A DNA stretch of 64,000 nt, from the NCBI RefSeq assembly GCF_000827125.1, contig NZ_CP010311.1:2811001-2875000 (forward strand). The letters are read 5' to 3'. The DNA is from Geoalkalibacter subterraneus (GTDB lineage: Bacteria > Desulfobacterota > Desulfuromonadia > Desulfuromonadales > Geoalkalibacteraceae). The stretch's first letter is position 1; each line of letters starts with the position of its first letter. Below the pieces are notes generated by a model. The model saw only the letters and a list, made by a program, of their open reading frames with translations, did not search any database and was not told where the DNA came from. Below, in pieces: positions 7,964 to 64,000 of this stretch. Position numbers and translations under genes: made by a program.

Positions 7964-7968
7964 CACGA

Positions 7969-9501: not shown

Positions 9502-9580
9502 GCGCTATCAGGCCTTTTTTGTTCGAATGCACAAACCAAAAAGAATAACTCGCAACAATGAACCTTTTCTCACTTCAAGA

Positions 9581-9609
9581 TATTAAATATTTTATACGAG
9601 AAAAATCAA
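9581..9609 (-). promoter_or_regulatory. candidate sigma70 promoter of the left cytochrome operon
   Basis: On the minus strand, TTGATT (9604-9609) and TTAATA (9581-9586) are 17 bases apart in an AT-rich stretch, about 80 bases before the cytochrome start. Confidence 0.4.
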
Positions 9610-9677
9610 TACAAGATATGTGCCGGGGGTGGGGGTAAAACAATTTTCCACGGGGTGTGAGGCGAGAAGGAAACAGA

Positions 9678-9702
9678 AACGCCCGGTGCGGGACCGGGCG
9701 TT
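9678..9702 (-). terminator. hairpin terminator after the tetrahaem cytochrome
   Basis: A perfect 10-bp stem (AACGCCCGGT / ACCGGGCGTT) with a 5-base loop sits about 28 bases past the stop of the gene at 9731. On the minus strand it is followed by a short T-rich run. Confidence 0.75.
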
Positions 9703-9730
9703 CGGGGATCAGACTCTGAAATTACAGGGT

Positions 9731-27170: not shown

Positions 27171-27716
27171 ATGAAAAAATGGTATTCGGTCGCGCTCTGC
27201 GCGGTCATTCTGTTATCACCCTTCGACACCTCGGCAAAACGCATCGCCGATGAGGTGCTTATACCAGTAGCCGAAACCGGCTCCGTCCGCTTCAGCCATT
27301 ATCGCCACATCGAAGTGCTGGGCAATAACTGCGTCATCTGTCACAACGACATCTTTCACATTCAGCCCGAAAAAAATCCCACCTTTACCATGGCGGATAT
27401 GGCGGAGGGCAAAAGTTGCGGCGCCTGCCACAATGGCCGTGAAGCGTTCGGAGTGAGCGGCAATTGCAGCCCCTGCCACCCCACCCGGGATGTTTCCTTT
27501 GAAATCCCGGATTTTGAAGATGTCACATTCAGCCATGACGAACACACCTTCCTATACGGATGCGTTGAATGCCACCCCGATCTGTTCCTGCCCCAACCCG
27601 ACAATCCTGCGGTCAGCATGGAAAGCATGAAAAAAGGGGAATCCTGTGGGGCCTGCCATGATGATTCGACCGCATTCTCGGTAGCCGGCAACTGCGAGCA
27701 GTGCCATCATCAGTAA
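27171..27716 (+). CDS. hexahaem cytochrome made of two c7-type domains
   Basis: A 181-residue secreted protein. The signal peptide ends near DTSA. Two tandem modules each have an F.H..H segment (VRFSHYRHIEVLGNNC; VTFSHDEHTFLYGC) and three haem sites (CVICH, CGACH, CSPCH; CVECH, CGACH, CEQCH). Module two repeats MESMKKGESCGACHD against MADMAEGKSCGACHN of module one, so it arose by duplication of a triheme c7 unit. The ribosome site AGGAGG is strong. A periplasmic electron carrier is likely. It stands alone between non-cytochrome genes. Confidence 0.92.
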   Translation: MKKWYSVALCAVILLSPFDTSAKRIADEVLIPVAETGSVRFSHYRHIEVLGNNCVICHNDIFHIQPEKNPTFTMADMAEGKSCGACHNGREAFGVSGNCSPCHPTRDVSFEIPDFEDVTFSHDEHTFLYGCVECHPDLFLPQPDNPAVSMESMKKGESCGACHDDSTAFSVAGNCEQCHHQ

Positions 27717-47110: not shown

Positions 47111-48571
47111 ATGATGTCAAGAAGTGTTTTCATGTATTTTCGGCGGGCCCTCCATGTGCCGGCTCTTTTTGTGTGCGCTCTGCTCGGGGGTGTTCTCTGC
47201 CCCCCTTTGGCCGGAGAAGCATCCGCCGCTGTTCAGGCACCCAAAACCCGCGCCGTCAAAATTATCGACCGCGACGAATTGAACCAGCCCCTGCGGTTTC
47301 CTTCCGGACTGACCTACGACAGCGCCAGTGATGAGATCCTGATCACCAGCCCCCAGAAAAACAAATTGACCATTACCACCAGCGATTATTTCCCCTACAT
47401 CGCCCTTGGTTCGGGCCGCGGACTGCGCTCCGTCGGCAAAAGCTTCACCCGCAACGGCCTGATTTATGTCTGCATCGGGCACGGCGGGCCGGATCAGCGT
47501 GCCCACATTGCCGTCTTCGACGGCGCCCTGTTGCCGGTTGAACAATTCTACTTCCCCGATTTCCCCGATTTTTCTCCCATGGATGTGGCGGTCAGCGAAA
47601 ACGGTCGCCTGTACGTGGTCGGCACCGGCGTTTCGGGAGTGCTCGTTCTGGATTCGAAGGGTCGCTACCTGCATACCCTCTCGCCGCGCGAGGAAGTCCA
47701 GGGCAAAACCGATGAGGTCTTCATCCATGCCGTCGATATCGGCAGCGACGGGCGGCTTTATTTTGTCAGCGAAGGGAAAGGGCGCGTCTACGTTTATGAC
47801 GCTGAGGAAGAATTTCTGTTCAAATTCGGCGAAAAGGGGGGGGAGCCGGGCAAACTGTCGCGCCCTCGCGCCCTCGCTGTAGACGATGCCCGCCGCCGGA
47901 TCTTTCTGGTCGATTACCAGCGCCATACAGTGCCGGTTTTTTCCATTGACGGGCAGTACCTTTACGAACTGGGCGGACTGGGAACAAGCCGCGGATGGTT
48001 CCACTACCCCATGGATGTGGAAATGGACGGCCAGGAACGGTTGCTCGTCGCCGATGCCTTCAATCACCGGGTGCAGGTCATTGAATTTATCGACCAACCG
48101 CGGCAGGACTCGATAGGGGCTGGAAAAAGTGTCGACGCGGAATTCCCGCTCGAGCAGGCTCCCGCACCCAGGACCCTGACCATCGACCGTATCGAAACCT
48201 CACTGCCGGAAGGTGCGGTCGGCGATTACCTGGTGCTGGCCCTGCTTTCGCCCGACAGGGAGACTGCTGAAGTCGTTGCCGAGAATCTGCGCAGAATAGA
48301 ACTTCCGGCTTTCGTCCGCAGTGTGGAGCGTGCGCGGCGCGGCACCTGGCACCAGGTTTTTACAGGGCCCTACGAGACTCCCCTGCAGGCCTACAACACA
48401 GCAGAAAACCTCAGGACCAAAGAGGGCCTGCCGGCGATCGTCAAAACCCTGGGGAGACGTACCGAATTCATGCTCCCCTCTCAAGCGGTGACAACTTCGC
48501 CCGGCGACACAAAGGAAACAGGGAAGTCCGAAACGCCGGAGTCGCAACCCCAAGAGAATATGCAACCCTGA
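47111..48571 (+). CDS. secreted NHL propeller protein with C-terminal SPOR-like domain
   Basis: About 486 residues. A signal peptide (FRRALHVPALFVCALLGGVL) is followed by NHL-type blades (RFPSGLTYDSASDEILITS, SPMDVAVSENGRLYVVGTG, IHAVDIGSDGRLYFVSEG, RPRALAVDDARRRIFLVD, HYPMDVEMDGQERLLVAD). Residues about 385-450 (VGDYLVLALLSPDRETAEVVAENLRR...RRGTWHQVFTGPYET...AYNTAENLR) look like a SPOR/septal peptidoglycan-binding domain. Start choice is uncertain: 47111 or 47132 both begin a signal peptide and no strong ribosome site is seen; a GTG at 47003 is less likely. First gene of the large cytochrome cluster. Confidence 0.82.
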   Translation: MMSRSVFMYFRRALHVPALFVCALLGGVLCPPLAGEASAAVQAPKTRAVKIIDRDELNQPLRFPSGLTYDSASDEILITSPQKNKLTITTSDYFPYIALGSGRGLRSVGKSFTRNGLIYVCIGHGGPDQRAHIAVFDGALLPVEQFYFPDFPDFSPMDVAVSENGRLYVVGTGVSGVLVLDSKGRYLHTLSPREEVQGKTDEVFIHAVDIGSDGRLYFVSEGKGRVYVYDAEEEFLFKFGEKGGEPGKLSRPRALAVDDARRRIFLVDYQRHTVPVFSIDGQYLYELGGLGTSRGWFHYPMDVEMDGQERLLVADAFNHRVQVIEFIDQPRQDSIGAGKSVDAEFPLEQAPAPRTLTIDRIETSLPEGAVGDYLVLALLSPDRETAEVVAENLRRIELPAFVRSVERARRGTWHQVFTGPYETPLQAYNTAENLRTKEGLPAIVKTLGRRTEFMLPSQAVTTSPGDTKETGKSETPESQPQENMQP

Positions 48572-48597
48572 GCCGCCGGTTGCCGAGGATAAGACTC

Positions 48598-49407
48598 ATG
48601 CCGATTTCAGTCATGACAAGATTGGGGCGGATCGCCTTTTTCAGCCTCCTGCTTGCCTTTTCAATGGGCTTTCCGGCCGGTATGGCTGGAGGTCAGGACA
48701 CGCCCCGTCTTCAGCCTCAGGATTGCAGCAAGTGCCACCAGGAACAGAGCCTCGCCATCAAAACAGAGGGCAAACGTCATCGCAGCAGCATCTCCTGCAT
48801 TGACTGCCACAAGGAGCATCTACCGGACGGAACGGACACCATCGCCACCTGCGACCGTTGCCACCCCCCTACCCGGATGAAACATTTTACCGTGGTCGGC
48901 TGCCGGGAATGCCACCCGCCGCACACCCCACAGCAGATCGACTACAGCGATCTGCCCCGGGCGACGCCGGCCTGCGTCTCCTGTCATTATCAGGCAGCGG
49001 CCACCATGCGCGACTTTCCCAGCGACCATGCGGTTCTCGACTGCAAGTCCTGTCATGCCCGGCATGGCGAGCACGACGAATGCCTGACCTGTCATGACCC
49101 GCACCAGGAGGGGGAGACCAATGCATACTGCCGGCGCTGCCATACTCCCCACAAGCCGCTGCAGATTACCTACGGCTCCGACATGTCTTCGGGCACGTGC
49201 ATTTCATGCCATGAGGAGCAGGGGGAGCAGCTGGACAATACGCCGACCAAGCATCAATTGCTGTCCTGTACCTACTGTCATCGTAATCAGCACGGTTTTA
49301 TACCACCCTGCACCTCGTGCCACGCGCAGCCTCATGACGAAAGCATTCACAGCCGGTTCGAGGGCTGCAATGACTGCCACGGCGGTGCGCACAACCTGAT
49401 GAAATAA
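48598..49407 (+). CDS. 12-haem periplasmic cytochrome c
   Basis: A 269-residue secreted protein. The signal peptide ends near GMAGG. Twelve CXXCH sites run from CSKCH to CNDCH with 15-25 residue spacing. That is about one haem per 21 residues, which is very dense. ATG 48598 has a GAGGAT site and is preferred over an upstream TTG. It lies between the propeller-SPOR gene and the outer-membrane barrel gene, the position expected for the periplasmic or pore-inserted cytochrome of a porin-cytochrome conduit (inference). Confidence 0.94.
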   Translation: MPISVMTRLGRIAFFSLLLAFSMGFPAGMAGGQDTPRLQPQDCSKCHQEQSLAIKTEGKRHRSSISCIDCHKEHLPDGTDTIATCDRCHPPTRMKHFTVVGCRECHPPHTPQQIDYSDLPRATPACVSCHYQAAATMRDFPSDHAVLDCKSCHARHGEHDECLTCHDPHQEGETNAYCRRCHTPHKPLQITYGSDMSSGTCISCHEEQGEQLDNTPTKHQLLSCTYCHRNQHGFIPPCTSCHAQPHDESIHSRFEGCNDCHGGAHNLMK

Positions 49408-49484
49408 TTAAAGCAAATTTTACTCTCAAGTTTTTACCGACTGATTTCCATCCTTAACATTGAAGCAAAGCGGATCCGCTCACC

Positions 49485-51587
49485 ATGAAAAATCAGCACC
49501 GGATCACCTCCGACAAAATGCTTGCATCATCAGCTCGGGCGCTGATCGTCCTGATGCTGATCGTGTACGCAACGCCCGTTGCGGCCGGGGATCCGCTGAG
49601 CTTTATCGGCAACTGGAATTATCGTAAAAGCGGAGGAGATACAGGCGACAGTTCTCTTTTCAACCATACATATACGCTGATCTATTCCAAAGAACTCTCC
49701 GATGCCATGGCCTTCTCCGCTTCAGTTCGCTACAATGAAAACATTCCCTCCGGGGATCTGGAGAAGACCGATTCCATCAACCCCACTCTGTCCCTCGATA
49801 CCCGCAATGATTTCTTCTCTCTCAATCTCAATGCCTCCCGAACCGAACTGAATCGCGAAGACAACCCTTCGCGAACGGATCAATCATGGAGCGCCAACTT
49901 TCAGACCCAGGTCGAGCAATGGCCAAGCCTGAGACTCTACTACAATCAGAACAGCAGCTACGATGACGGCTCGCCCCGACGCCAGGATGTCGATTCCGAT
50001 GTTTTCGGAGCAACGATCGAATACACCATCGCCCATTTCGACCTGCTCTACGATTTTCGTCGCTCCGAAAGCCAGGATCATGTCAACCGCAGCGATACAG
50101 AAACCACCGACCACACAGCCCAGGTCGGCTATTCCAACGCGTTTTTCGGCAACCGGGTCAGCGTGGCCGCGTCCCAACAATATCAGAGCTTCAAAACCAG
50201 CACTGAAACCCGGGTCGGCGTGGGGGGCCGCTTTTTTGTGCCGGCTTTTCTTTTCGGCGGCTTCTCCAGCGAGGACGACACCCCGGCAACGGGCACACCT
50301 GCAAACAACCCGGCCCTGATCGACGGAGACACAGACGCCTCCGCCGGCATCGACATCACCGGCACGACGATCAAACAGAACATGGCTGTGCAGATAAATC
50401 TGCAGCCAATCGACCGGGTGCGCATATACCTTGACCGCATGATCGACACTGCGACCCAGAACCGGTTGCAGTGGAGCATCTATCAAAGCTCGGACCTGAC
50501 CAACTGGACACAAATCACCAACATCCTGCCCGTCTTTTATGACGAGGAAAACGGTCGCACCCTGGTAGTTCTCGACCTTGTCGATGCCGCCGAATCCCGT
50601 TACATCAAAGTCGTGAGCGATACAACGCTGCCGTCCACGATCTCGGTTTTTGTCACTGAAATGGAAGCCGGCACAGTACGTATCGCAACTTCCGACCGCT
50701 TCAGCATCAATCAGCGCACCATCAATCTGCAGTCCCAGTTCAGCACGACGGTGCGCATTACGGATTCCTGGCAGGTCAGCTACAACCTGCGCCGCAACGA
50801 AAACCGTCCCGACAACGGCCTTGACACGGTACAGTTCAATCACACCCTGAGCACGCGCTACAACCCGAGCGAGCTTCTGACCCTGAGCCTGGGCATCTCC
50901 GAGAATATCGACTGGACCGACAGCGACGAAGACCGCCGCAGCCGCTCCTACTTCATCTCGGTCGGCTCCCAGCCTCTGCCGACACTGAACTATACACTGG
51001 GCTACACGCGCACGGAAACCCGCAGCGATGAGCATGGCGATATCGACGGCGACTCCTTCAGCGCCCTGGTCAATGCCACTATCTTCCCGGATTTGACCAG
51101 CAGTCTCTCGGCCAACTGGAGTCAAAGGGAAGACATTACCGACGGCAGAACGAACACGGTCTATGGATTCAACCTCGATGCCACGGCCCGGTTGAGCCCA
51201 CGGCTCGATCTCAATATCGACCTGGGGTATACCAAATCCACCTCTGAAGGCGAACTCATCGATGACGAAACCACAACCGGCACCCGTTACGGCTTTAACC
51301 TCGGCTACCGCCCATCGGATATTCTGCTGTTCAATGGTGGATTCCATCGTCAGGTCGAGGAGAACACCTCGGTGGTCAATGCCTCTTTTACCGGCCTCTG
51401 GACACGCAAACTGCAGACCATTTTCGGGCTGACCTACTCCATGGGAGATGAAGACAGCCGACAGTACACTGGAACAATCAGCTGGCTGGTCAGCCGCAGA
51501 ATTTCGACGCAGATCAATGGGAGTTATCTGGATGCAGATTCCGGCGACAGCTGGAGCATCCTTTCGAGCCTGCATCTAACGCTTTGA
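49485..51587 (+). CDS. outer-membrane beta-barrel protein of a cytochrome conduit (putative)
   Basis: A 700-residue secreted protein. The signal peptide ends VYATPVAAG. The mature part is alternating amphipathic strands rich in Tyr, Thr, Asn, Asp and Ser (YTLIYSKELSDAMAFSASVRYNE, FSLNLNASRTELNRE, NYTLGYTRTETRSDEHGD), and the last strand ends SILSSLHLTL with a C-terminal hydrophobic residue, as outer-membrane barrels do. Around residues 270-400 a non-barrel insertion resembles a small discoidin-like beta domain (VRIYLDRMIDTATQNRLQWSIYQSSDLTNWTQI). It is flanked by multihaem cytochromes, so a pore that encloses a cytochrome is the best guess. No sequence family was recognised. Confidence 0.8.
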   Translation: MKNQHRITSDKMLASSARALIVLMLIVYATPVAAGDPLSFIGNWNYRKSGGDTGDSSLFNHTYTLIYSKELSDAMAFSASVRYNENIPSGDLEKTDSINPTLSLDTRNDFFSLNLNASRTELNREDNPSRTDQSWSANFQTQVEQWPSLRLYYNQNSSYDDGSPRRQDVDSDVFGATIEYTIAHFDLLYDFRRSESQDHVNRSDTETTDHTAQVGYSNAFFGNRVSVAASQQYQSFKTSTETRVGVGGRFFVPAFLFGGFSSEDDTPATGTPANNPALIDGDTDASAGIDITGTTIKQNMAVQINLQPIDRVRIYLDRMIDTATQNRLQWSIYQSSDLTNWTQITNILPVFYDEENGRTLVVLDLVDAAESRYIKVVSDTTLPSTISVFVTEMEAGTVRIATSDRFSINQRTINLQSQFSTTVRITDSWQVSYNLRRNENRPDNGLDTVQFNHTLSTRYNPSELLTLSLGISENIDWTDSDEDRRSRSYFISVGSQPLPTLNYTLGYTRTETRSDEHGDIDGDSFSALVNATIFPDLTSSLSANWSQREDITDGRTNTVYGFNLDATARLSPRLDLNIDLGYTKSTSEGELIDDETTTGTRYGFNLGYRPSDILLFNGGFHRQVEENTSVVNASFTGLWTRKLQTIFGLTYSMGDEDSRQYTGTISWLVSRRISTQINGSYLDADSGDSWSILSSLHLTL

Positions 51588-51671
51588 CAGGCGGGGCCTT
51601 TGTCCCGATAATGATATCCGGCATTCGGACGGGCGCCCCTGCCCGTCCCAGATTGAAGGAAGGTGATCAAC

Positions 51672-52241
51672 GTGCAAAGATATGTTTTCGTCAGCATTCT
51701 GGCGCTGCTGTTTTTTGCCGCAGGGTGTTCCTCACCTCGGCATTTCGCTGCGGAAAGCCTTGAACTTGACTATGTGAAGAGAATCGTGGTTCTTCCTTTT
51801 GAAAACAACACCGAGACCAAATTCGCCGGTCAGCGCTTTCGCGACATTGTCACGACCGAAATTCTCAGTGCCGGCCTCTTCGATGTGGTGGAGCGTGGCG
51901 AATCGCAACGCTTTCTGCGGGAAGAGGTTGTCAGCAAAGAGCAGGAAATAATCGATCAGGCGACCGCTTTGCGCCTCGGGCAGGAGCTTAATGTTGAAGC
52001 CTACCTGGCGGGAGCAGTCAACGACTTCTCCGAGCGGCAGAACGGCAGCTACAATTACCCGGTCGTCGCCGCGACTTTGCGCCTGGTCGACGTCAAGACC
52101 GGGCAGATTATCTGGCAGGCCGGCGACAGCGAGAGCGGTTACCGCACCTTTGACCGGCTGTTCGGATTTGCCGCCCCGGACATCAACCAGGTCGGGTATC
52201 GTCTTGCAAGGCGCCTGCTCTCGACAATCAAGGGGCGTTAA
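51672..52241 (+). CDS. CsgG/TolB-N-like small lipoprotein
   Basis: A 189-residue lipoprotein (FVSILALLFFAAGC). The core KRIVVLPFENNTETKFAGQRFRDIVTTEIL...GLFDVVERGE, then LGQELNVEAYLAGAVNDF and AATLRLVDVKTGQIIWQ, matches the fold family that includes CsgG, FlgO/LpoB and TolB N-domains. It lacks the extra region CsgG uses to form its channel. The GTG at 51672 follows AAGGAAGG at good distance; a GTG three codons upstream overlaps the ribosome site. It is an outer-membrane periplasmic accessory, 13 bases before the next gene. Confidence 0.8.
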   Translation: MQRYVFVSILALLFFAAGCSSPRHFAAESLELDYVKRIVVLPFENNTETKFAGQRFRDIVTTEILSAGLFDVVERGESQRFLREEVVSKEQEIIDQATALRLGQELNVEAYLAGAVNDFSERQNGSYNYPVVAATLRLVDVKTGQIIWQAGDSESGYRTFDRLFGFAAPDINQVGYRLARRLLSTIKGR

Positions 52242-52254
52242 GGAGTTGGCACGA

Positions 52255-53745
52255 ATGAACCGCCTGTGTCGGGCGACATTGCTTTTGGCCCTGGCAATAC
52301 TGTTGCAGATTGCGGGGCCCGGATCGGCCCTGGCCCAGAAAACCGTTCTGCTCCCGGTCGCGGATCTCAGCCGTGGCGAAAACGGCCTGCACCTCGGGTT
52401 GACCAGAACGGTCATGAGCGCCCTGGAGCGTATCGGCCTTGAAGTCGCGCCTATGGGAGACGTCCTGCGGTTTATGTCGGACAACAAAGTCCGCAGTTAT
52501 CACTACCTCGACTCCTTTCTGATACAGAAGATCGGGCGTGATCTCAACGCTCAGCTGGTCCTGATGGGGACCGTCACCGAAACCGCCGGCCGCACGCCTG
52601 CCATCGGGCTGAGCTTCACCGCATACGAGACGGCACGCGGCGCCCCCATCTGGGGTGAAACCGCTGCCACCAGCATACGTGAGCAGGCCGGTGTGCTCGG
52701 CCTGGGGGAACCCGCCGGCGTTGAAGACCTGGCAAATCCCCTTATCGATCAGATCCTCGGTGAATTCCATAAAAACGTCTACGGGGGATTCATTCCGGAA
52801 GTTCGCGAATACCAGCTGGTCGGCATGCAGGTCACCCCGGCTTATGTGCAGGGGGGCAGCCGCATCGAAGCCCGCTTGAAAATACGATTTCTCGGTTCAC
52901 ACCCGAAGCTTATCGGGGCGCGCAGCGCCGCCGGGCAGACCTACCTGCTGCATGACAAAAAGACCAATACCTGGCAGGGCAGTTGGGCAGCTCCCAAGGA
53001 AGAAGGCAGCTATCCCATCGACATCACTCTCGAATGGGAGCCAGACACGGACGTAGAAACCCTGCAGGAAGTCGCGCGCTACGTGGTGATCAACGAACCA
53101 CCGGGGCTGACCCTGGAAATCAAGAAAGGGCAGCGCATCGGAACGGACCTCGCCTTCAACAACCATCTCCTCATCCTGCCGCGCCTTGGCAAGGTCAGCC
53201 CACTGGCGCGCTGGGGACTTGAAATCCTGACCGAAGACGGCATACGCGTGGTCCAGGAGGAGCATGAGGGCGACATCCCGGAAAGACTGATCTGGGAGGG
53301 CAAGGGAAGCGACGGGTTCAAGCTGGCCAACGGCGCGTACGATATCGTTTTCCATGTTTATGACCTGGCCGGCAATCACAGCGAAGCCTCACGGCGGGTC
53401 GTGTTTCAGTCCGCCCCTCCCAAAATCAGGGCGGAAGTCCAGGTCATTGAGAGTGAAGGGCGGCTTGAGCTCCGCACTGATGGCGCATTCACCTATCCAC
53501 TGGTCAACTGGTCTGCGGAAATAAAATCGATGACCGGGACAACGCTGCTGCAGGAAAGTGGCGATGACCTGCCGGCGACCCTCAAATTTAAACCTGTCGA
53601 GGGGGAGGAAAATGCCTTTCTGACTCTGACCGGCGAGGATCAACTTGGAAACCGTCTGCGCATCGCCCGACAAAAATTGCCCCTGGTCGAAGGCGAAGCC
53701 GAGATTGAGGAGCAGGAAGCCAAGTCCTGGGTTCAGGATTTCTGA
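52255..53745 (+). CDS. periplasmic TolB-N/CsgG-like protein with FlgD-like Ig domain
   Basis: A 496-residue secreted protein with a signal peptide ending near SALA. Residues about 28-130 (KTVLLPVADLSRGENGLHLGLTRTVMSALERIGLEV...LNAQLVLMGTVTETA) are a second copy of the CsgG/TolB-N-like fold. The middle and C-terminal parts are beta-rich. RLIWEGKGSDGFKLANGAYDIVFHVYDLAGN is the FlgD Ig-like element seen in cell-surface and type IX-associated proteins. The stop overlaps the next ATG by one base. The partner is not identifiable from sequence. It may organise the barrel or the secreted filament. Confidence 0.72.
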   Translation: MNRLCRATLLLALAILLQIAGPGSALAQKTVLLPVADLSRGENGLHLGLTRTVMSALERIGLEVAPMGDVLRFMSDNKVRSYHYLDSFLIQKIGRDLNAQLVLMGTVTETAGRTPAIGLSFTAYETARGAPIWGETAATSIREQAGVLGLGEPAGVEDLANPLIDQILGEFHKNVYGGFIPEVREYQLVGMQVTPAYVQGGSRIEARLKIRFLGSHPKLIGARSAAGQTYLLHDKKTNTWQGSWAAPKEEGSYPIDITLEWEPDTDVETLQEVARYVVINEPPGLTLEIKKGQRIGTDLAFNNHLLILPRLGKVSPLARWGLEILTEDGIRVVQEEHEGDIPERLIWEGKGSDGFKLANGAYDIVFHVYDLAGNHSEASRRVVFQSAPPKIRAEVQVIESEGRLELRTDGAFTYPLVNWSAEIKSMTGTTLLQESGDDLPATLKFKPVEGEENAFLTLTGEDQLGNRLRIARQKLPLVEGEAEIEEQEAKSWVQDF

Positions 53746-54344
53746 TGAATATGTCATGGTTATTTAAATTCACCGCCCTGCTGATCCTGTCATCGCTCTG
53801 CGGGTGCGCCGGACAACGCATGCCACAGACCCGCATGTCGGCAATGGCGGAAACCGATATCTGCCGCATCGCCATCATGCCTTTCGAAAACCGCACGCGA
53901 GACGACCGGGCAGCGACCATGGCATACCGGGTATTAATGGCTGAACTGATCGGGAGCGGGCAACTCGAGGTTGAACCGGAAGGCGATGTCGGCCTGTTTC
54001 GACTGCGCCACCGCCTATTTCCCGGTGAGAGGCTTCTTCCCGACCAGTATGCAGACCTTGCGCGGCAGATGAAGGTCGATGCCATTGTGCGGGGGCGCAT
54101 CACCGATATCGGTTACGACAGCAGCAGAGGGGAGCGGGACATCCCCTATATTGCACTTCAGCTTGATCTTTTTGATGTCCGACGGGGACACCCCGTTCTG
54201 AATACCATCCATCGGCGCTACGGCGATGAGTACCGCAAGATGATGCATTTCGGCGTCATTACGACAACAACGGGCCTGATGGCCCGCATGTCGCAGGAAA
54301 TTATCGCTGACTGGTCAGAAAAAGGAGTAGGCAATTGCCCATGA
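53745..54344 (+). CDS. CsgG-like small lipoprotein, second copy
   Basis: A 199-residue lipoprotein (LLILSSLCGC). CRIAIMPFENRTRDDRAATMAYRVLMAELIGSGQLEVEPEGDV, then ADLARQMKVDAIVRGRITDIGYD and IALQLDLFDVRRG, gives the same fold as the gene at 51672, with low identity. It overlaps both neighbours (TGATG at its start, ATGA at its end), so the group 51672-55969 is one translationally coupled block. Confidence 0.78.
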   Translation: MNMSWLFKFTALLILSSLCGCAGQRMPQTRMSAMAETDICRIAIMPFENRTRDDRAATMAYRVLMAELIGSGQLEVEPEGDVGLFRLRHRLFPGERLLPDQYADLARQMKVDAIVRGRITDIGYDSSRGERDIPYIALQLDLFDVRRGHPVLNTIHRRYGDEYRKMMHFGVITTTTGLMARMSQEIIADWSEKGVGNCP

Positions 54345-55969: not shown

Positions 55970-55970
55970 C

Positions 55971-57938
55971 ATGAGTCCAGAGCGCAAGCCCATGTGGCGA
56001 TGGCTTATGATCCCGGCAGCATTGGCAGGCATGTTCATGATGTTCGCCTGCACCTCGCCTGGAACCGGTTCCCGTGAGGGCAAAACCTGTTTGGACTGCC
56101 ACGAGCAATACCGCGACCAGTACAACCAGGGAGTGGTTCATCAACCGGTGGCGCGAGGCGACTGCGCCGGCTGTCACCGTCGACATGGATTGATCGGCGG
56201 TGCATTTCTTCATGTCGAAGGAGCCAAGATGTGTTTCCGCTGCCATCAGGAGTTCGCCCAGGACCTGGGGCGTGCCAGATCTCTGCACCCTCCTGTTGAG
56301 CAGGGCAATTGTCAGCAGTGTCACGAGCACCATAACGGTCCCCATGCCGACCTGCTGAAAACACCCGAGAAGGATCTGTGCTTTACCTGCCATGACGCAG
56401 CGCTCTTCACCCGTGCTTTCGTCCACAAGCCGATGGAAGACAGCTGCCGCACCTGCCACAGCACGCACGGCGCCCCCGCCGCCGCTCTACTTCAGGAAGA
56501 AGAGCAGACCCTCTGCGCAAGATGCCACAGCGTCAGCGATCGCGGTTTCAAACAGACCCATGCCGATTATCCGGTTGTCGATACCTGCTCCGACTGTCAT
56601 GCGGTCCATTCCGCGGACAACGCCGCGCTTCTCAAAAGCCACACCCATCAACCCATGGCGGGGCGAAACTGCGAAAGCTGCCACAATTCGCCCAACGCAT
56701 CCTCTGCGTTTGCCTTGGAGAAGCGCGACAGCGCCCTGTGCTACCAATGCCATCAGGACCGCCGTTCGGCTTTTTCCTCTGCGGAAGCACATGCGCCGGT
56801 GGCCGAAGGGAAATGTGAGAGCTGTCACACGCCCCACGCCTCCGAACAAGTTGGCCTGATTCGCACGTCGCCTGACCAGCTCTGTTTTGAGTGCCACCAG
56901 TTCACCCGCTTTGGGCCACAGCCCCCGGACCAGGAGATTCCGGCCGGAGGAAGCACCCATGCCCCGGCGCGCGATGGTGACTGCCTGAGCTGCCATGTGC
57001 CGCACATTGCCGAAGCAGGACGCAGCGCCCTGCTGAACAGCGCCCCGGATTCACTCTGTTTTGAGTGCCACCGGGAGCAGACCGCAAACAAGCGGGTTGC
57101 CCACCAGCCGGCGCGCGACGGCGACTGTCACTACTGTCATACTCCCCACGAAAGCAATGGCCCGGGCCTGCTGGCAAAGCCGCAACGCCATCTGTGCGCC
57201 GAATGCCATGCATCCGTCGAAGAAACACTTGGGCTTCCAAGCCTTCACCGACCCTTTGTTTCAGGCGACTGTTCGTCCTGTCACGACCCTCACGGGGCAA
57301 ACCTCAAGAACCTTCTCCGTGGGCGCGGGGCGGACTCCTGCGCCGAATGTCACGGAACCATCGAGACCGAGCGCAGGCTTGCCAACCGGCATCAGCCGTT
57401 CACCGAAGGACGCTGCGATTTGTGCCATCTGCCCCACGGCAGCAACGAGGCCTTTCTGCTTGCCGGCAGCGCCAGTGAGCTGTGCATCGACTGCCACAGG
57501 GACTATCGCGTTAAGCCCGACACCCCCGAGGCCCATGCAAACTGCACGGTCTGTCATCATGCCCACGGCAATGGGGAACCCAGCTTCCAGCTTCGCGAGC
57601 AACCCGATCTCTGCCTCACCTGCCACGAAGTGAACCGCTACTGGAGCGACGGCGTCGGACACGCACCCGCGGTCAATGGTGAATGCAACCGGTGTCACGA
57701 CCCTCATGCCCCACAGAATAGCCCGGCCGGTAAGCGCAATATCTCACTGTGCGCCCAATGCCACGACACTTCGGAGAGTGCCCTGTCGGGATCGCACCGG
57801 GGGATCAAACCCGGCCCCGGGAGCTGCCTGAACTGCCATGACCCGCACGGAGGCCCCGATGCCTCCCTGACGCTTCCAGTCAAGCATGCGCCGTTTTCAG
57901 AAGGCAACTGCACACCCTGCCACCCGGGAGGGCTTTAA
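55971..57938 (+). CDS. 26-haem cytochrome c lipoprotein
   Basis: A 655-residue lipoprotein (AALAGMFMMFAC). I count 26 CXXCH sites from CLDCH to CTPCH, alternating between CHDPH/CHTPH-type sites preceded by HAP/HQP...GDC and plain sites (LCFECH, LCAECH). This gives a repeat of about 45-50 residues with two haems each, the doubled-CXXCH architecture. The lipid anchor suggests outer-membrane attachment. The start is two bases after the isomerase stop. It is likely the long electron wire of the conduit. Confidence 0.94.
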   Translation: MSPERKPMWRWLMIPAALAGMFMMFACTSPGTGSREGKTCLDCHEQYRDQYNQGVVHQPVARGDCAGCHRRHGLIGGAFLHVEGAKMCFRCHQEFAQDLGRARSLHPPVEQGNCQQCHEHHNGPHADLLKTPEKDLCFTCHDAALFTRAFVHKPMEDSCRTCHSTHGAPAAALLQEEEQTLCARCHSVSDRGFKQTHADYPVVDTCSDCHAVHSADNAALLKSHTHQPMAGRNCESCHNSPNASSAFALEKRDSALCYQCHQDRRSAFSSAEAHAPVAEGKCESCHTPHASEQVGLIRTSPDQLCFECHQFTRFGPQPPDQEIPAGGSTHAPARDGDCLSCHVPHIAEAGRSALLNSAPDSLCFECHREQTANKRVAHQPARDGDCHYCHTPHESNGPGLLAKPQRHLCAECHASVEETLGLPSLHRPFVSGDCSSCHDPHGANLKNLLRGRGADSCAECHGTIETERRLANRHQPFTEGRCDLCHLPHGSNEAFLLAGSASELCIDCHRDYRVKPDTPEAHANCTVCHHAHGNGEPSFQLREQPDLCLTCHEVNRYWSDGVGHAPAVNGECNRCHDPHAPQNSPAGKRNISLCAQCHDTSESALSGSHRGIKPGPGSCLNCHDPHGGPDASLTLPVKHAPFSEGNCTPCHPGGL

Positions 57939-57941
57939 ACG

Positions 57942-59123
57942 ATGAAAAACATCAGGTTTTCCATTCATACCGGATTGTTCGTCCTGCTGCTGGTGGTTGT
58001 CTCCACTCCGGCTGTTGCACAAAACTGTTTTAACTGCCACGACAGAAGCGCCTTCACAGACAAATTCGTCCACTCCCCGGTACGCGAGGGAGATTGCAGC
58101 CTGTGCCACAACCCCCATGTCGCGCGCCACGAAGGCCTTCTGCACCAGGCCGAAGCGCAGCTGTGTCAGCAGTGCCACCAGGATCAGCAACGGCAGATGG
58201 CTGAGAACGCCTACCTGCATCCGCCCGTACGGCAAGGACGCTGCAGCCAGTGCCATGATCCCCATGCCGCTCCCAACGCAGCGCTGCTGCCGCAGCAAGG
58301 CAGCGCGCTGTGCTTCAGCTGCCATGATGAGATGCAGCGGGATTTCAAGTTCAGCCATCAACCCTTCCGGCAGGGGCAGTGCTCGACCTGCCATGCATCC
58401 CACGGTGCCGAGGACACGCGCCTGTTGAAAAAGGACGGAACTCAACTATGCCTCGACTGCCATCGCACCGGTTCCGCCTGGAGTCGGAAACACCTCGGCC
58501 GCAAGGCAGCAGAGATGGACTGCCTGTCCTGCCATCACCCGCATGGCAGCGATTCACGCCTGATGCAGCGGGCGGTTCAACACGAACCCTTCTCGCAAAA
58601 GCAGTGCTCAAACTGCCATGACCGCGACACGCAAAGCAGCGACGTCTGCCTCGGCTGTCACCAGGACACTCTGCCGTCATTCAATCACATTCACAGCCAT
58701 CTCGGCATCGCCGGTGCTGGAAACGCCTGCACGACCTGTCATAACCCTCACACCGGCGACCGTCAGGGGCTTCTCCCGGCCAATGTCGGCAACGTCTGTC
58801 GGGATTGCCACAGCGCAACCTTTGACACGCGCGACCGAATGCTGCACAAGCATCCAGGCTGGAACAACTGCACCGACTGCCACGACCTCCACGGCGCCGA
58901 CAATCCCGGCATGCTCAAAAACGAAGGCAACGCATGCGCCGACTGCCACAAGCGCCACGCGGCCTTCTCGCATCCGATGGGTGACAAGGCACCCGACCCG
59001 CGTGACGGCCGCCCTATGACCTGCGAAACCTGCCATGACGCCAACACGGGGACCATGTACCAGCACTTCCTGCGGGGCAGCGGCGAACGCGGCCTGTGCA
59101 TCCAGTGCCACCAGGATTATTAA
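57942..59123 (+). CDS. 16-haem cytochrome c
   Basis: A 393-residue secreted protein (signal ends VVSTPAVAQ). Sixteen CXXCH sites run from CFNCH to CIQCH in the same alternating doubled pattern as the preceding 26-haem protein, to which it is clearly related. It lacks a lipobox, so it is soluble or periplasmic, or peripheral. It starts three bases after the previous stop. Confidence 0.94.
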   Translation: MKNIRFSIHTGLFVLLLVVVSTPAVAQNCFNCHDRSAFTDKFVHSPVREGDCSLCHNPHVARHEGLLHQAEAQLCQQCHQDQQRQMAENAYLHPPVRQGRCSQCHDPHAAPNAALLPQQGSALCFSCHDEMQRDFKFSHQPFRQGQCSTCHASHGAEDTRLLKKDGTQLCLDCHRTGSAWSRKHLGRKAAEMDCLSCHHPHGSDSRLMQRAVQHEPFSQKQCSNCHDRDTQSSDVCLGCHQDTLPSFNHIHSHLGIAGAGNACTTCHNPHTGDRQGLLPANVGNVCRDCHSATFDTRDRMLHKHPGWNNCTDCHDLHGADNPGMLKNEGNACADCHKRHAAFSHPMGDKAPDPRDGRPMTCETCHDANTGTMYQHFLRGSGERGLCIQCHQDY

Positions 59124-59152
59124 AAATGTACCCGGTTGAGGGAGAAGAATCG

Positions 59153-60040
59153 ATGAAACACCTCAAGCACTTCTTGTTTATGATCACCGCTGGCCTGCTG
59201 AGCCTCGCACTCGCGGGACCTGCCATCGCAGAAGGTCCCTGGAAGTTCTCGCAACAGCTTCCGGCCCGCGACGCAGGCATTGTTCTTGAGCGCCCCATGG
59301 CCGTCACAATCGATGAGCAGACTCGTCGCTACTATGTGGTCGATGCAGGGCGCTCGCAACTGGTCTCCTTCAATCAGGACGGAACCCTTCATGCCGCCTT
59401 CAATGCAGGCGGCCGCCTCGATCGGCCCATCGCCATGGCGCGCAGCCGCAACGGCACACTCTGGGTCGTCAACCGCGGCACCAACGAACTGCTTCACATC
59501 AACGTCGCCCGACAGGAAGTCAACGGTTATTCCATCAACTATCCGGATGGAACCCCGGCTTTTCCTGCCGGTGTTGCCGTTGATGAAAAAGACCGCCTCT
59601 TCATTCTTGACGGCAAGAGAGGCGCCGTCCTCCTGATGGACGACAACCTCAAGATTTCACGGCAATTTGCCGGAGAAAACAATTTCCAGGGATTTAACGA
59701 TTTTGTTCTGAAGCCTGACGGTCTTTGGGCGCTGGAGGCAAGTGCCCGCAAGGTTTACCATTTTTCCATGGATGGCACCCTTGTTAAGGTGATACAATTA
59801 TCGGGATTGGAGTTTCCGGTGGCACTGGAGTTGGACGCCGGAGGGCAGATATACGTTCTGGACCGCCGCACAGGAGTCATCACCGCATTCGGTCGCGACG
59901 GTGCGAAAAGGTTTGACTTTCTCGGGAAAGGCAAACGCCACGGACAGGTCTGGAACGGCACGGATCTGCTGTTTGACTGGTCGGGGCGTCTTTGCGTCGC
60001 AGATGAAGGCAGCGGTCAGATTGAAATACTGACCCGTTGA
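59153..60040 (+). CDS. secreted NHL beta-propeller protein
   Basis: A 295-residue protein. The signal peptide ends ALAGPAIAEG. Blades include RPMAVTIDEQTRRYYVVDAG, RPIAMARSRNGTLWVVNRG, FPAGVAVDEKDRLFILDGK, FNDFVLKPDGLWALEAS, FPVALELDAGGQIYVLDR and LLFDWSGRLCVADEG: six, a complete propeller. GGGAGAAG precedes the ATG at 59153. Its position directly before the OmcS-like gene suggests a dedicated chaperone or adhesin for the filament subunit (inference). Confidence 0.88.
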   Translation: MKHLKHFLFMITAGLLSLALAGPAIAEGPWKFSQQLPARDAGIVLERPMAVTIDEQTRRYYVVDAGRSQLVSFNQDGTLHAAFNAGGRLDRPIAMARSRNGTLWVVNRGTNELLHINVARQEVNGYSINYPDGTPAFPAGVAVDEKDRLFILDGKRGAVLLMDDNLKISRQFAGENNFQGFNDFVLKPDGLWALEASARKVYHFSMDGTLVKVIQLSGLEFPVALELDAGGQIYVLDRRTGVITAFGRDGAKRFDFLGKGKRHGQVWNGTDLLFDWSGRLCVADEGSGQIEILTR

Positions 60041-60062
60041 CAGATCTTCGAATGGTACCGCG

Positions 60063-61187
60063 ATGGACAGGACCACCGAAATGAAACCTGAATTGATAGG
60101 ATCCAGTCGGGACCTCCCTTTTTCGAGAGGTCCCAAGACCTGCAATTTTCTCCTGCTTCTTTTTCTGCTTTCCCTTGTTTCGGCACCCGGGATGGTCTGG
60201 TCTGCCGTTCGCGGACATTGCTCTTCCTGCCATACGATGCATCACAGCCAGGACGGAAGGGCCTTGAGTCAATGGGGAGAGGAGGGGCCGTACCAGGCCC
60301 TGCTGACCACCGATTGCGCGGGCTGCCACATGGGCGTCAACAGCGGCGGGGAGACTCCGTTCGTCATCTCTGCGACCGAACCCTCTTACCAAATGACAGG
60401 AACCGAAGCGGGCACCAACACCCTGGCAGGCGGAAATTTCTTCTGGGTAGCCAGCACCGGCATGGATTCACGCGGCCACAATGTCGAGGGGTTGACCGCC
60501 CCGGACAGTTCCCTCCCTTCGCCCCCGGGATTCGACGGATCCCAGGCAGCCGCCGATGGAAGCATACCGGCCGGCGGAAGCTGGCCCAACGGCCGCCAGG
60601 TAGGCTGTGCGGGGACATACGGCTGCCACGGCACCCACAGCGAAACTCATCCGGTTGCCGCTGTCAAGGGAGGGCACCATCAGGGGCGTGGAGGAGCAAT
60701 CACCTCCCCCGGGTCTGAACCTGCCGGGGGGTATCGCATGCTGGTGGGCATCGCCGGCTACGAAGACCCGCTGTGGGAATATAGTGTCGATGCCGGCAGC
60801 CACAACCAGTACAAGGGTGCAGATGGAACCCGGGACGATTCTACCATAAGCTCCCTCTGCATTCGCTGCCACGGCAAGTTTCATGACCAGGGAAGTATCG
60901 GCAGATGGATCCGCCATCCGGTTGACTATGACATGGCCAACTCGGCCGCCGACTCCGAAGTCCGGGGCTACGGCGGCGACACCAACCAGTATCAACCCGC
61001 GGTCCCCGTGGCCAGCTTCGATGTTTCCCGCCCCTTGAGCCAGGTCAGCATGCAAGGCGGGGAAGCCATCGTAACCTGCCTGAGCTGCCATCGGGCCCAT
61101 GGTTCTCCCTACGACAAGATGATGCGCTTTAATTATGCAGGCTCCCTCGGAGACGGTTGCATCGTGTGTCACACCTCAAAGGACTGA
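60063..61187 (+). CDS. OmcS-like hexahaem-site extracellular cytochrome
   Basis: A 374-residue secreted protein. Hydrophobic signal at about 27-48, cleavage near WSA. The architecture follows OmcS: CSSCHTMHHS (site 1, C53), CAGCH (C85), GGNFFWV then GHN, a third site, GGYRMLVGIAGYE, LCIRCH (C266), RHPVDYD, CLSCHRAHGSPYDKMMRFN (C339) and terminal CIVCHTSKD (C366). In OmcS site 3 is a normal CXXCHDPHG. Here it is C182-AGTYG-CH, a CX5CH spacing, followed by GTH. OmcS polymerises into conductive filaments, so this is the candidate filament subunit. ATG 60081 is an alternative start. Confidence 0.85.
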   Translation: MDRTTEMKPELIGSSRDLPFSRGPKTCNFLLLLFLLSLVSAPGMVWSAVRGHCSSCHTMHHSQDGRALSQWGEEGPYQALLTTDCAGCHMGVNSGGETPFVISATEPSYQMTGTEAGTNTLAGGNFFWVASTGMDSRGHNVEGLTAPDSSLPSPPGFDGSQAAADGSIPAGGSWPNGRQVGCAGTYGCHGTHSETHPVAAVKGGHHQGRGGAITSPGSEPAGGYRMLVGIAGYEDPLWEYSVDAGSHNQYKGADGTRDDSTISSLCIRCHGKFHDQGSIGRWIRHPVDYDMANSAADSEVRGYGGDTNQYQPAVPVASFDVSRPLSQVSMQGGEAIVTCLSCHRAHGSPYDKMMRFNYAGSLGDGCIVCHTSKD

Positions 61188-61221
61188 GCGGCCGGTTCCT
61201 GAACTGCAACGAGGAATGTCC

Positions 61222-62610
61222 ATGATCGTTTTTAAAATAGACCGACATTTTTTACGGCGGGTTGCGGCACAAGCCCTCGCCCTTCTGTTCCTGGCCTCCG
61301 CTGGATATGCCGGACCCTATCGGGAGTCAGCCCACGGCGACGGGGATGAAGGCGTTCACCGCCTGGTCCCCGGGGTCTCCTCTCCCGGACCCTATATAAC
61401 CGGCAACTGCGCCCATTGCCATGAACAGCACGCGAGCATGGGAGGTCAGGAGCCTGTTCCCCAAAACGGCGGGCCCTCCCCGTTCGCACTTTTCGCACCG
61501 CCATTCGATTCCGCGCGGCGCTTTGCACCTTACCAGATGGAAGATGTTTTCTGCTTTTACTGCCACAGCGGCGCGTCATCGCTGCAACGCTCTGCCTCCC
61601 TGATGGAAAACTACGATTACAGCCGCAACTTCGGAGGGCTGACCGGCGGCCCCAACAACGTCCTTGAGGCATTCAATCAGCCTCTTGCCGGCCTGTCCGC
61701 CTCCTACCACAATCTGTACGATATCTGGAATCATTCCCAGAGATTCAACTTCTTCAAGTCCAACTCCACGCCCTGCAGCGCCTGTCACAATGCACACCGC
61801 GCCCGGCAGAATCGCGAACACCCTCAAAATCCTGATTTTACCGCCATTTCTCTCCCCACCGACCACGAAAGCCTGTGGGGAGATGATGCGGGCGAAACCA
61901 TGGCAGCCTATAACGGTGAATACGAACATCCGCTTTATGCCGGACCCTCAGGCGGCCGTGAACCCGCTGGTGTCGGCGCCGCTCTTGCCAACGGCTCGCA
62001 GGTGCCGGACTATAATCGTTTCTGCCTCGACTGCCACGCCGAACAGGTCTACAGCTCGACGTTATCCCGCCAGATCCCCCGCATCGACTGGACCACCACC
62101 GGCGGGGATACATATTCAGCCGGCGACAAGCATGGTCGCAACTCTTACACCAACGAAATTCTGGTTCAGGCCCCTTTTGATTCGGCTATGGGGCAGAATC
62201 GCGGTTTCGTTCTTTCCTGCCTCGACTGTCATGAACCCCACGGCGCCCCCAATGCCTATCTGATCCGCCGCGGTGTCAACGGTTCTGCACTGATGGGCCA
62301 GGTAACGGGAAGAGCGGCAGACAACAGTATGGGATATCTCTGCCGGCAATGCCACAAGGATGATGACGCACAATATGGCGGAGCTGTAAACAGTTGGCGT
62401 TTTGTACACCACGACTCACAGGAAGCACCCTATACGGCCTGGCAATGCGCGACCTGTCATCCGATGGGGGGCGGGACGGGAACGCAACCGCCGATCGGCT
62501 GCGGATACTGCCATGGCCACGGCATGACCATCGACAAGTCCACGCCGGGCACACTACCCAGTGGACAAACCATCCCCGCCCCCAACGGGGGAGCACGCAA
62601 GACTTTCTAG
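61222..62610 (+). CDS. 8-haem secreted cytochrome c
   Basis: A 462-residue protein with signal peptide ending SAGYAG and eight haem sites: CAHCH, CFYCH, CSACH, CLDCH, CLDCH, CRQCH, CATCH, CGYCH. Haem density is low, with long loops rich in Tyr, Asn and Gly, as in extracellular Geobacter cytochromes. The first site GNCAHCHEQHASMGG and SCLDCHEPHGAPNAYLIRRG echo filament-type proteins. ATG 61222 is 7 bases after GAGG. It lies 34 bases after the OmcS-like gene. It may be a second surface subunit or a terminal reductase. Confidence 0.9.
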   Translation: MIVFKIDRHFLRRVAAQALALLFLASAGYAGPYRESAHGDGDEGVHRLVPGVSSPGPYITGNCAHCHEQHASMGGQEPVPQNGGPSPFALFAPPFDSARRFAPYQMEDVFCFYCHSGASSLQRSASLMENYDYSRNFGGLTGGPNNVLEAFNQPLAGLSASYHNLYDIWNHSQRFNFFKSNSTPCSACHNAHRARQNREHPQNPDFTAISLPTDHESLWGDDAGETMAAYNGEYEHPLYAGPSGGREPAGVGAALANGSQVPDYNRFCLDCHAEQVYSSTLSRQIPRIDWTTTGGDTYSAGDKHGRNSYTNEILVQAPFDSAMGQNRGFVLSCLDCHEPHGAPNAYLIRRGVNGSALMGQVTGRAADNSMGYLCRQCHKDDDAQYGGAVNSWRFVHHDSQEAPYTAWQCATCHPMGGGTGTQPPIGCGYCHGHGMTIDKSTPGTLPSGQTIPAPNGGARKTF

Positions 62611-62619
62611 GACCGGCGT

Positions 62620-64000
62620 ATGTATCTACCTCGTATACTTTTTGTACTTTGGGCCATTTTTACTCTCACCGGCTGTCTTGCGTCTTCTCCCGGGCGCAGT
62701 GCTGCGCCCTCGCCCGACCAGGCACTGACAACGACATACCTCTCTCATTCCGGGCCCTCAACGGTCGACACATCCTTCGTTCTCGACGACTTTGCGCTTC
62801 AATCGGAAGGAGAGTGGGTCCAACTGGGCATTGAATCAGTGACCGTCGATTCCAAACATCACCGCGCCCCTCAGCGCGCCCTTGGGCTTGCATCGCTGCC
62901 GCCAGCAGATTACGCAAAGATCCGTTTTCGTCTATCCCGCCTTAAGGTCGGCAGGTCTGTCATCCCCCCCTCGGAGGATTACAGAATCGTTGAACTGACA
63001 TTGTCCGAGCCGCTTAGACTGGAAGCCACCGACAGTAAGTGCCTTTTTCTCGACTGGTATCTTGCCGTAGATGAAAACGGCGGCGCCATGACGCCTGTTT
63101 TCAAGGCCTGGGGACAGGGGCAAACTCTGGGTGGGGATCTTCTTTTTGCAGCCTGTGACCAGATCAACACCATTTACGTCATACGCTCCGATATCAACGA
63201 GGTGGTTGCATCTTTCGGCATTCCTGGACCACTGGGAGAAATCGCCGTGGCTTCCGACAAGCGGCGCCTGCATGTCCTCAGCACCGGGGAGAGAAGCATT
63301 TTTACCTTCGATGCCCTCAATCTCCACTTGATCGATCGCATTCCTTTATCCCGCACGATGGAGCCTCGGCATCTGGTTCTTTCCGAAGACGCACGCTACG
63401 CATTCGTATCCGACGCCGCGACAGGCCAGGTTCTCAAGATTGATCTTGCCAGCGGCCATGTCGCACAACAGATTCGGATCGGTCACCGCCCGGAACGGAT
63501 CGCCTACGGATCCGGTTCTCCCGCACGCATTGCCGTGGTTGCACCCCGATCCCAGCAGGTTTTCATTCTTGACGCCAACTCCCTTCGCACCCGTATCATC
63601 GTTTCGGTCGGCATGAATCCAACCAGCGCCCTTTTCTTTGCCGGCGATCTTTATGTCGCAGAACAGGCTTCCCAGACCGTTTCCATCTACGAAGAAGCCA
63701 GCGGACGGCAACAGTCCTCCATCAATGTCGGCTTTCAGCCGGACTACCTGCTGGCCCTCTCGGACCGCAAGGTCCTGGTCAGCAATGCCGGCGAGCAGAG
63801 TCTCTCCGTGCTTGTCCCCGATCAGGCCACATCTTTTCGAACCATCCGCGCCGGGAGCAACCCGACCACTCTCGCAAAATCAGAGACCCGCCAACTGCTT
63901 TATGTCGCCAACCGCAGTAAAAACCGTATCACCGTCATTGATCTGGCCTCAGAAAAAATTGAACAAGAGATTGAACTGGGGGGCATGCCTTTTTCCCTCG
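62620..64000 (+). CDS. YVTN-type beta-propeller lipoprotein, partial at window edge
   Basis: Open from ATG 62620 to the window end (460 codons, no stop). The lipoprotein signal ends FTLTGC. Residues about 20-190 are a non-repeating beta-rich region (VDTSFVLDDFALQSEGEWVQLGIESVTV). From about residue 195 there are YVTN-like blades (LGEIAVASDKRRLHVLSTGE, EPRHLVLSEDARYAFVSDAATGQVLKIDLASG, PTTLAKSETRQLLYVANRSKNRITVIDLAS). It is ten bases after the previous stop, so the operon continues beyond the window. Confidence 0.85.
   Translation, partial: MYLPRILFVLWAIFTLTGCLASSPGRSAAPSPDQALTTTYLSHSGPSTVDTSFVLDDFALQSEGEWVQLGIESVTVDSKHHRAPQRALGLASLPPADYAKIRFRLSRLKVGRSVIPPSEDYRIVELTLSEPLRLEATDSKCLFLDWYLAVDENGGAMTPVFKAWGQGQTLGGDLLFAACDQINTIYVIRSDINEVVASFGIPGPLGEIAVASDKRRLHVLSTGERSIFTFDALNLHLIDRIPLSRTMEPRHLVLSEDARYAFVSDAATGQVLKIDLASGHVAQQIRIGHRPERIAYGSGSPARIAVVAPRSQQVFILDANSLRTRIIVSVGMNPTSALFFAGDLYVAEQASQTVSIYEEASGRQQSSINVGFQPDYLLALSDRKVLVSNAGEQSLSVLVPDQATSFRTIRAGSNPTTLAKSETRQLLYVANRSKNRITVIDLASEKIEQEIELGGMPFSL

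Follow-up and report, generated by a model that had tools for sequence, protein, structure and literature searches.

The locus described here occupies positions 47111-64000 on the plus strand of a 64,000-nucleotide stretch of the Geoalkalibacter subterraneus genome (the window; bases 2,811,001-2,875,000 of contig 1, in a genome of 3.72 Mb) and holds 13 genes, the last of which (N) runs to 64014, beyond the window. Based on family matches and on comparison with related genomes, we assign the locus with reasonable confidence to the family of the osc cassette of Geobacter (approximately GSU2504-GSU2493), as a member of the sub-type grouped with Desulfuromonas and Desulfurivibrio in PMC5539420. 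The original prediction of thirteen closely packed plus-strand genes was borne out by the open reading frames, with which the family matches agreed. Neighbouring genes are separated by gaps of 3-77 bases or overlap by 1-53 bases, as computed on adjusted starts such as that of E at 52255. The genes are as follows; Osc names give the likeness to the Geobacter cassette, and values in brackets are expectation (E) values.

47111-48571, plus strand: A, propeller (Pfam NHL, 7e-10) with a weak C-terminal SPOR match (0.0012) below the cut-off
48580-49407, plus strand: B, 12-haem cytochrome, MtrA/DmsE-like, with a signal peptide-like start at ATG 48598
49485-51587, plus strand: C, predicted outer-membrane beta-barrel of 700 residues, OscE-like by position
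51663-52241, plus strand: D, PelC/LpoB-like lipoprotein, OscF-like (LpoB 1.9e-12, CsgG 2.4e-7)
52255-53745, plus strand: E, N-terminal domain corresponding to the first half of OscG, with a C-terminal FlgD_ig-like extension
53745-54344, plus strand: F, lipoprotein corresponding to the second half of OscG, with a weak TolB_N match
54335-55969, plus strand: G, parvulin-type prolyl isomerase, OscH-like (Rotamase_2 1.2e-19)
55950-57938, plus strand: H, 26-haem cytochrome, OscI-like, with a doubled CXXCH family match
57942-59123, plus strand: I, 16-haem cytochrome, OscJ-like, with a doubled CXXCH family match
59096-60040, plus strand: J, NHL propeller (1.1e-12), likely start near 59153
60063-61187, plus strand: K, OmcS-like protein with 5 CXXCH and one CX5CH, giving 6 predicted haems; candidate filament subunit
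61135-62610, plus strand: M, 8-haem cytochrome; the start may be 61216
62620-64000 (end at 64014), plus strand: N, YncE-like propeller lipoprotein, OscD-like (YNCE 1.2e-11)

The first ATG in the open reading frame of E (51991) is a wrong start, and the gene begins near 52255, after the end of D at 52241. A recount of the CXXCH sites was identical to the predicted one, with 12 in B, 26 in H, 16 in I, 5 in K and 8 in M, or 67 in total, plus the one CX5CH in K. Also the parvulin isomerase (G) and the three propeller proteins (NHL in A and J, YncE-like in N) were recovered as foreseen. For A, proposed as a propeller-SPOR protein, the propeller part held, but the SPOR match was too weak; in A homologues of 329-374 residues the SPOR-like tail may be absent. 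Similarly, H has its 26 CXXCH sites, but its description as a lipoprotein is uncertain: the signal ends in MMFAC, which falls outside the loose pattern used; this pattern matched 14 of 26 H sequences from relatives, a fragment and a duplicate counted among them. The claim of a complete system could not be kept, as the window edge cuts the locus. Further OmcS-like genes O, P and Q follow at window-equivalent positions 64398, 66106 and 67319, with 7, 7 and 5 CXXCH, respectively, the last again with a CX5CH.

The same genome carries a second cassette, of the Geobacter type. A search with OmcS (residues 7-348 of PDB 6ef8) matched 51 of 277 genomes at an E value of 1e-20, own genome included, at 1.585-1.600 Mb:

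about 1,583,270-1,599,040 of contig 1 (G000:C1; L083 7270-18001 and L084 3-5042): complete canonical osc cassette of the same genome, with two six-CXXCH OmcS-like genes

Its order is propeller, the two OmcS-like genes, YVTN propeller, barrel, LpoB-like protein, 408-residue protein, isomerase (read across two stretches), 26-haem protein, 16-haem protein and propeller, after which a minus-strand six-haem gene and a 12-haem gene are found. This order fits GSU2504-GSU2493 and is identical in G155, G144, G010, G037 and G186, with variation at the OmcS end. The canonical cassettes compared came from genomes with GSU2504-2493-like order, not from G. sulfurreducens itself. In published work, GSU2501 is oscC, GSU2495 is oscI and GSU2494 is oscJ (PMC13194489), and GSU2500-2493 are the block of eight genes connected with the maturation and secretion of OmcS (PMC12977616). 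The other osc letters were assigned by counting gene order.

Counterparts in the canonical cassette were assigned by hhalign for C, D, E, F, G and N and by BLAST for H and I. The barrel C aligned to the canonical barrel with an E value of 9.1e-50, D to the OscF position with 2.3e-34, G to the isomerase with 5.1e-30 and N to the YVTN propeller at the OscD position with 8.5e-36. Between H and the genome's own canonical 26-haem protein the identity was 33% (1.4e-115), and between I and the canonical 16-haem protein it was 35% (3.8e-64). Residues 9-175 of E aligned to columns 12-191 of OscG (2.5e-18) and F to columns 212-373 (2.7e-19), so that OscG appears as one two-domain protein in the canonical type and as two genes here. 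Judged from these alignments, what had been predicted as a CsgG/TolB-N-like trio is an OscF-like protein (D) and an OscG split into E and F, and E has gained, or OscG has lost, the FlgD_ig-like part, which was found in 10 of 14 E homologues. D and F are also related to each other (hhalign, 7.4e-26). OscG-type matches in G021, G023, G037, G051 and G052 lie in open frames of 971-1455 codons; the other matches to the E N-domain in the class search described below lie in frames of fewer than 500 codons.

The window locus and the published osc cassette share OmcS-like cytochromes, the YVTN propeller, barrel, LpoB/PelC-like proteins, isomerase, 26-haem and 16-haem proteins and propeller. The window differs in the split of OscG with an Ig-like extension on E, in the place of its propeller N after K, in having A and the 12-haem B before the barrel, in the CX5CH at haem 3 of K, and in the position of H across a fully supported branch (100/100) of the 26-haem tree. 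The four core genes of PMC5539420 (26-haem, 16-haem, isomerase, propeller) are all present in the window, as is the rest of the eight-gene osc block (barrel, OscF-type, OscG-type as two genes, YVTN propeller). An unprecedented gene arrangement was therefore ruled out, as the core is a gene-for-gene match to the osc cassette. The trio, the 26-haem protein and the propellers, thought unfamiliar in the original prediction, are standard content of a known cassette, and the idea of a novel arrangement was rejected because other genomes and published work show the same order.

As a single query, the 496-residue E matched 17 of 58 genomes at an E value of 0.001 (own genome included, two only marginally), and a 14-row alignment of E matched 64 of the 277 genomes of the class. 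Thirty of these matches were long and strong (2.5e-65 or better), all in the taxonomic order of the window, and the other 34 covered only the first ~184 of 501 positions. Five other searched genomes of the window's family gave no E match. In a phylum sample of 395 genomes 63 matched E, 34 of them strongly (5.8e-56 or better), with 3 in the window's order and 31 outside the class. Of the 29 further genomes in the class whose E match was long, 27 (all but G089 and G116) had their neighbourhoods compared; outside the class, the comparison took in 13 stretches from 12 of the 31 long-match genomes.

The proposed comparison of gene order across Desulfuromonadales showed that C to J keep their order for as far as the contigs extend, within the longer series A, B, (a second 12-haem gene), C, D, E, F, G, H, I, J, OmcS-like, (M), N. 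Among related loci within the window's order, most have A directly 5' of the 12-haem gene, and a propeller, J-type or canonical, lies 3' of the 16-haem gene in all related loci whose stretch reaches that far; M is present in only some. The gene directly before C was of the 12-haem type in 20 of 23 loci and OmcS-like in three (L034, L037, L165); this count leaves out L029 and L156, which begin after C, L033, which begins inside C, and L036, where C is absent beside D. The block C-D-E-(F)-G-26-haem-16-haem-propeller persists outside the class, except that no F was seen in L179 and that other genes separate E from G in L186. An OmcS-like gene with CX5CH occurs in 11 of these 13 stretches. The gene adjoining C is OmcS-like in nine of them (three times on the other strand) and of the 12-haem type in two, which rules out a 12-haem gene beside the barrel as a universal feature. 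Nor is B peculiar to the window type, since some canonical loci (L084, L090) likewise have 12-haem genes nearby. In the 26-haem tree 23 window-type and 5 canonical rows were split by the one branch mentioned above. With 13 rows from outside the class, 11 fell on the window-type side and two on the canonical side (Shimodaira-Hasegawa-like approximate likelihood ratio test, SH-aLRT, 98), in a tree made by a quick method that has some long branches and 36 rows left after removal of near-duplicate rows of six loci.

Relatives of the window type have also been described. The operon of SEEP-SRB1 and Desulfuromonadales in PMC5539420 has the same core four genes, and the clade with Desulfuromonas and Desulfurivibrio alkaliphilus in that paper agrees with the window type, L174 and L175 falling on the window-type side of the tree; the word 'barrel' is absent from its main text, and the passages used here do not name the lipoprotein trio. 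The cassette of oetABI with OmcX, OmcS-like and Apc2a genes (PMC10553843) combines OmcS-like genes with a porin and with cytochromes of the periplasm and the outer side, and is also reported from Desulfuromonadales. Its description (omcB mutant, Fe(III) oxide expression) fits that of GSU2495 in PMC10599522. It probably belongs to the same cassette family, by likeness of description.

For D. alkaliphilus the OmcS-like DA_402, with seven CX2-5CH motifs, was reported to be more than 100-fold up on sulfide plus ferrihydrite and was modelled as a filament; DA_756 and DA_765 were likewise up on ferrihydrite, and all three OmcS-like proteins, counted by CX2-5CH, were placed in a sister clade of OmcS (PMC12545173). 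In L174 we found perfect matches to the two published DA_402 primers, which together span 84 bases, the length implied by the primer names; the forward primer occurs in one of 186 loci. The matched gene encodes 431 residues with 6 CXXCH and a CX5CH and lies directly upstream of the barrel C, whereas K follows J in the window. In L175, from the same genome (G465), two OmcS-like genes flank a series of exactly eight, C to J, which is the spacing expected from the gene numbers 756 and 765, and two operon copies are reported for D. alkaliphilus (PMC5539420). Because of the primers, the gene count and the two copies, G465 is almost certainly D. alkaliphilus. Cassettes of the window type thus carry the iron-oxide-induced genes.

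The OmcS-like nature of K was supported by a single-sequence phmmer match to OmcS (6ef8; 1.5e-9) and by an 11-row profile (1.6e-17), which also reached two cytochrome c-552 chains at 0.008. We aligned 88 sequences, comprising 6ef8, 45 canonical, 23 K (the window's included), 6 Q and 13 O/P rows and leaving out candidates with fewer than five CXXCH, with 8 CXXCH or with fewer than 300 residues. In all 23 K rows 11 of the 12 canonical haem-cysteine columns are kept. At haem 3 the canonical CXXCHxxH is replaced by CX5CHxxH, as if three residues were inserted; its first Cys and the displaced Cys-His were found in 23/23 K and 6/6 Q rows, and the last His in 22/23 and 5/6, respectively. OmcS histidines 110, 257 and 335 are present in every K and canonical row, and His16, which we take to be the intersubunit ligand of OmcS, in 23/23 K and 38/45 canonical rows; the last haem lies beyond the OmcS fragment used. 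In OmcS one axial ligand of haem 505 comes from the neighbouring molecule (PMC6584659). As K has five CXXCH and one CX5CH, at haem 3, instead of the six CXXCH of OmcS, it is not an OmcS in the strict sense, though it may work like one. We make no claim to a first sighting of CX5CH, since PMC12545173 already counts CXnCH with n = 2 to 5; in the open-access literature 0 papers were found for CX5CH together with "cytochrome".

The 700-residue protein C had been proposed as a barrel, and its AlphaFold2 model from 12 rows is in line with this (predicted local distance difference test, pLDDT, 87.1; predicted template modelling score, pTM, 0.61). The model, by which C is predicted to be an outer-membrane beta-barrel, has ~29 long strands by our own count and an insert near 249-380, and the OMP_b-brl family match in Pfam is just under the cut-off. 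In a structural search all PDB matches were barrels. Among the 50 matches listed 6r2q_B gave the best TM-scores (0.41/0.44) and the longest alignment (455 residues, Z 16.2), and PirA the highest Z (19.5 over 343 residues). PelB was not supported as a special relative (Z 14.0 over 244 residues). The C profile had no good match among PDB sequences and none to MtrB, the best being YeCBM32 at 0.57, in the insert. B matched the DmsE family at 6.8e-8, under the family cut-off, and the best PDB match of its family profile was chain A of the Mtr complex (6r2q; 4.9e-9). We take chains A and B of 6r2q to be MtrA and MtrB, although the printed name of chain A is odd. M had no PDB sequence match at an E value of 1.

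For the lipoproteins, the prediction of CsgG/TolB-N-like proteins agrees with the CsgG match of D and the weak TolB_N match of F, but D and F are better read as PelC/LpoB-like. The D profile had PelC as its best PDB match (3.1e-6), and the F profile had 5t11 and 5t10, followed by PelC from 9h80 (2.3e-5 to 1.3e-4). Both match PelC (9h80) as well as chains 5t0z, 5t10 and 5t11, presumably PelC homologues, and E matched 5t11 at just 0.0013. CsgG in the PDB was found for D at 0.49 over 24 profile positions and was not listed for E or F, and a CsgG-type channel formed by the trio is weakened by the better LpoB and PelC matches. PelC forms a ring. As D and F match PelC while the CsgG match is weak, a PelC-like ring under the barrel could serve export and is the picture we prefer. 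With the PelB-PelC exopolysaccharide exporter (9h80) the locus shares PelC-matching lipoproteins (D, F) and a barrel, but the cargo differs and C shows no special likeness to PelB.

Taken as a whole, the locus likely builds, exports and electrically connects OmcS-like surface filaments. Roles in the family are partly published, with folding for OscH, secretion for OscE/F/G and morphology for OscD (PMC13194489, citing Shen 2025), and from these we infer the steps here. K, and probably also O, P and Q, would enter the periplasm by secretion, receive their haems and fold with the aid of the isomerase G. They would then cross the outer membrane via the barrel C, which would rest on D and the E/F pair; these PelC-like lipoproteins could form a guiding ring. 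K would polymerise head to tail, a histidine of one subunit binding the haem of its neighbour as in OmcS; the propellers N, J and A may cap or stabilise the filament, and the 12-, 26- and 16-haem proteins would transfer electrons to or from it. The predicted combination of filament and conduit is a reasonable idea that was partly supported, and it has already been published for this kind of cassette (PMC10553843), in whose Desulfuromonas-type branch the locus lies. Several points limit this function or weigh against it. The fold prediction of K gave a low-confidence model (pLDDT 34.5), which is given no weight as evidence. According to PMC5539420, four metal-respiring species, including Desulfuromonas acetoxidans, did not express the cytochromes of the operon. 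OmcS wires are dispensable for anode growth and Fe(III) oxide reduction (PMC13194489). Moreover, of the 30 genomes in the class in which E has a long match, 23 had no OmcS match at 1e-20, so that the evidence on OmcS carries over only by homology; the seven with a match are G000, G010, G023, G030, G037, G045 and G112, and draft genomes may hide further ones.

A conduit without export is a possibility that we hold to be somewhat doubtful. B would sit inside C like MtrA in MtrB, with the 26- and 16-haem proteins on either side as in the oetABI model, D-F would only place the barrel, and K would be soluble or at the surface without forming a filament. This is the published reading of oetABI (PMC10553843), and it agrees with the best PDB match of B and, among the 50 matches listed, the longest alignment of C to two chains of one Mtr complex, and with the 12-haem gene that immediately precedes C in most related loci within the order. 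However, outside the class the neighbour of C is mostly OmcS-like, PirA outranks MtrB by Z, C lacks a sequence match to MtrB, and the match of B to 6r2q_A may rest on its many CXXCH; also the secretion role given to OscE, F and G (PMC13194489 after Shen 2025) argues for export. It is unlikely, in our estimate, that the cassette serves electron uptake from a partner or electrode instead of Fe(III) reduction. Uptake was proposed for bacterial partners of methane-oxidising archaea (PMC10553843), and metal respiration, where no expression was seen (PMC5539420), donates electrons and does not accept them. The induction of DA_402, DA_756 and DA_765 on ferrihydrite (PMC12545173) speaks against it, as DA_402 lies in a window-type cassette by its primers and the other two fit L175 by gene count. 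That two or more unrelated units lie together by chance is highly improbable: a promoter-like site was found between C and D (51584-51612, scoring 11 of 12) and loci differ in whether and where they have M and N, but the four such sites in the region are fewer than the 5.0 that chance alone would give, the genes are closely spaced or overlap, and the order C to J is kept across the order and in other classes.

Returning to filament export and connection, a single machine could do both jobs, with C on the PelC-like D/E-F ring exporting K and then holding the filament base against B, so that the export gate becomes the electrical contact; the genome would then run two machines, Geobacter- and Desulfuromonas-type, for two filaments. 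We regard this as speculative and quite unlikely as it stands. How cytochrome nanowires are exported and electrically charged is an open question (PMC12307469). The comparison joins the osc cassette with the SEEP-SRB1 operon, the iron-oxide genes of D. alkaliphilus and probably oet in one cassette family, describes OscG as a two-domain protein that is split in the window sub-type, and offers the putative PelC-like ring and MtrA/MtrB-like pair as concrete parts. In a small open-access literature search that barely covered PelC, the split OscG, the PelC-like ring and the MtrA/MtrB-like pair were not found in print.

Downstream of Q lie R (window-equivalent 68456), a 5-CXXCH protein with a fibronectin-like middle, and S (69869), a small protein without a Pfam match, and beyond S genes that by eye resemble amino-acid transport and glutamate synthase. 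The R-S pair of a five-haem and a small protein ends window-type and some canonical cassettes in the order (L006 8956-10932; L089 5295-6896; L092 3103-4260). In L006 two seven-CXXCH OmcS-like genes (4700-6500 and 6400-7850) share 84% DNA identity over 1333 alignment columns, resembling a tandem duplication. Elsewhere in the window, a separate multihaem/propeller group on the minus strand (537-10093) has proteins with 7, 17 and 4 CXXCH and a ScyF-like propeller and is interrupted by IS21 genes (1424-3689) and an IS4 transposase (within 4412-6748). Additionally, 27171-27716 encodes a six-CXXCH protein with two nanowire_3heme (triheme c7-type) domains (2.1e-50).

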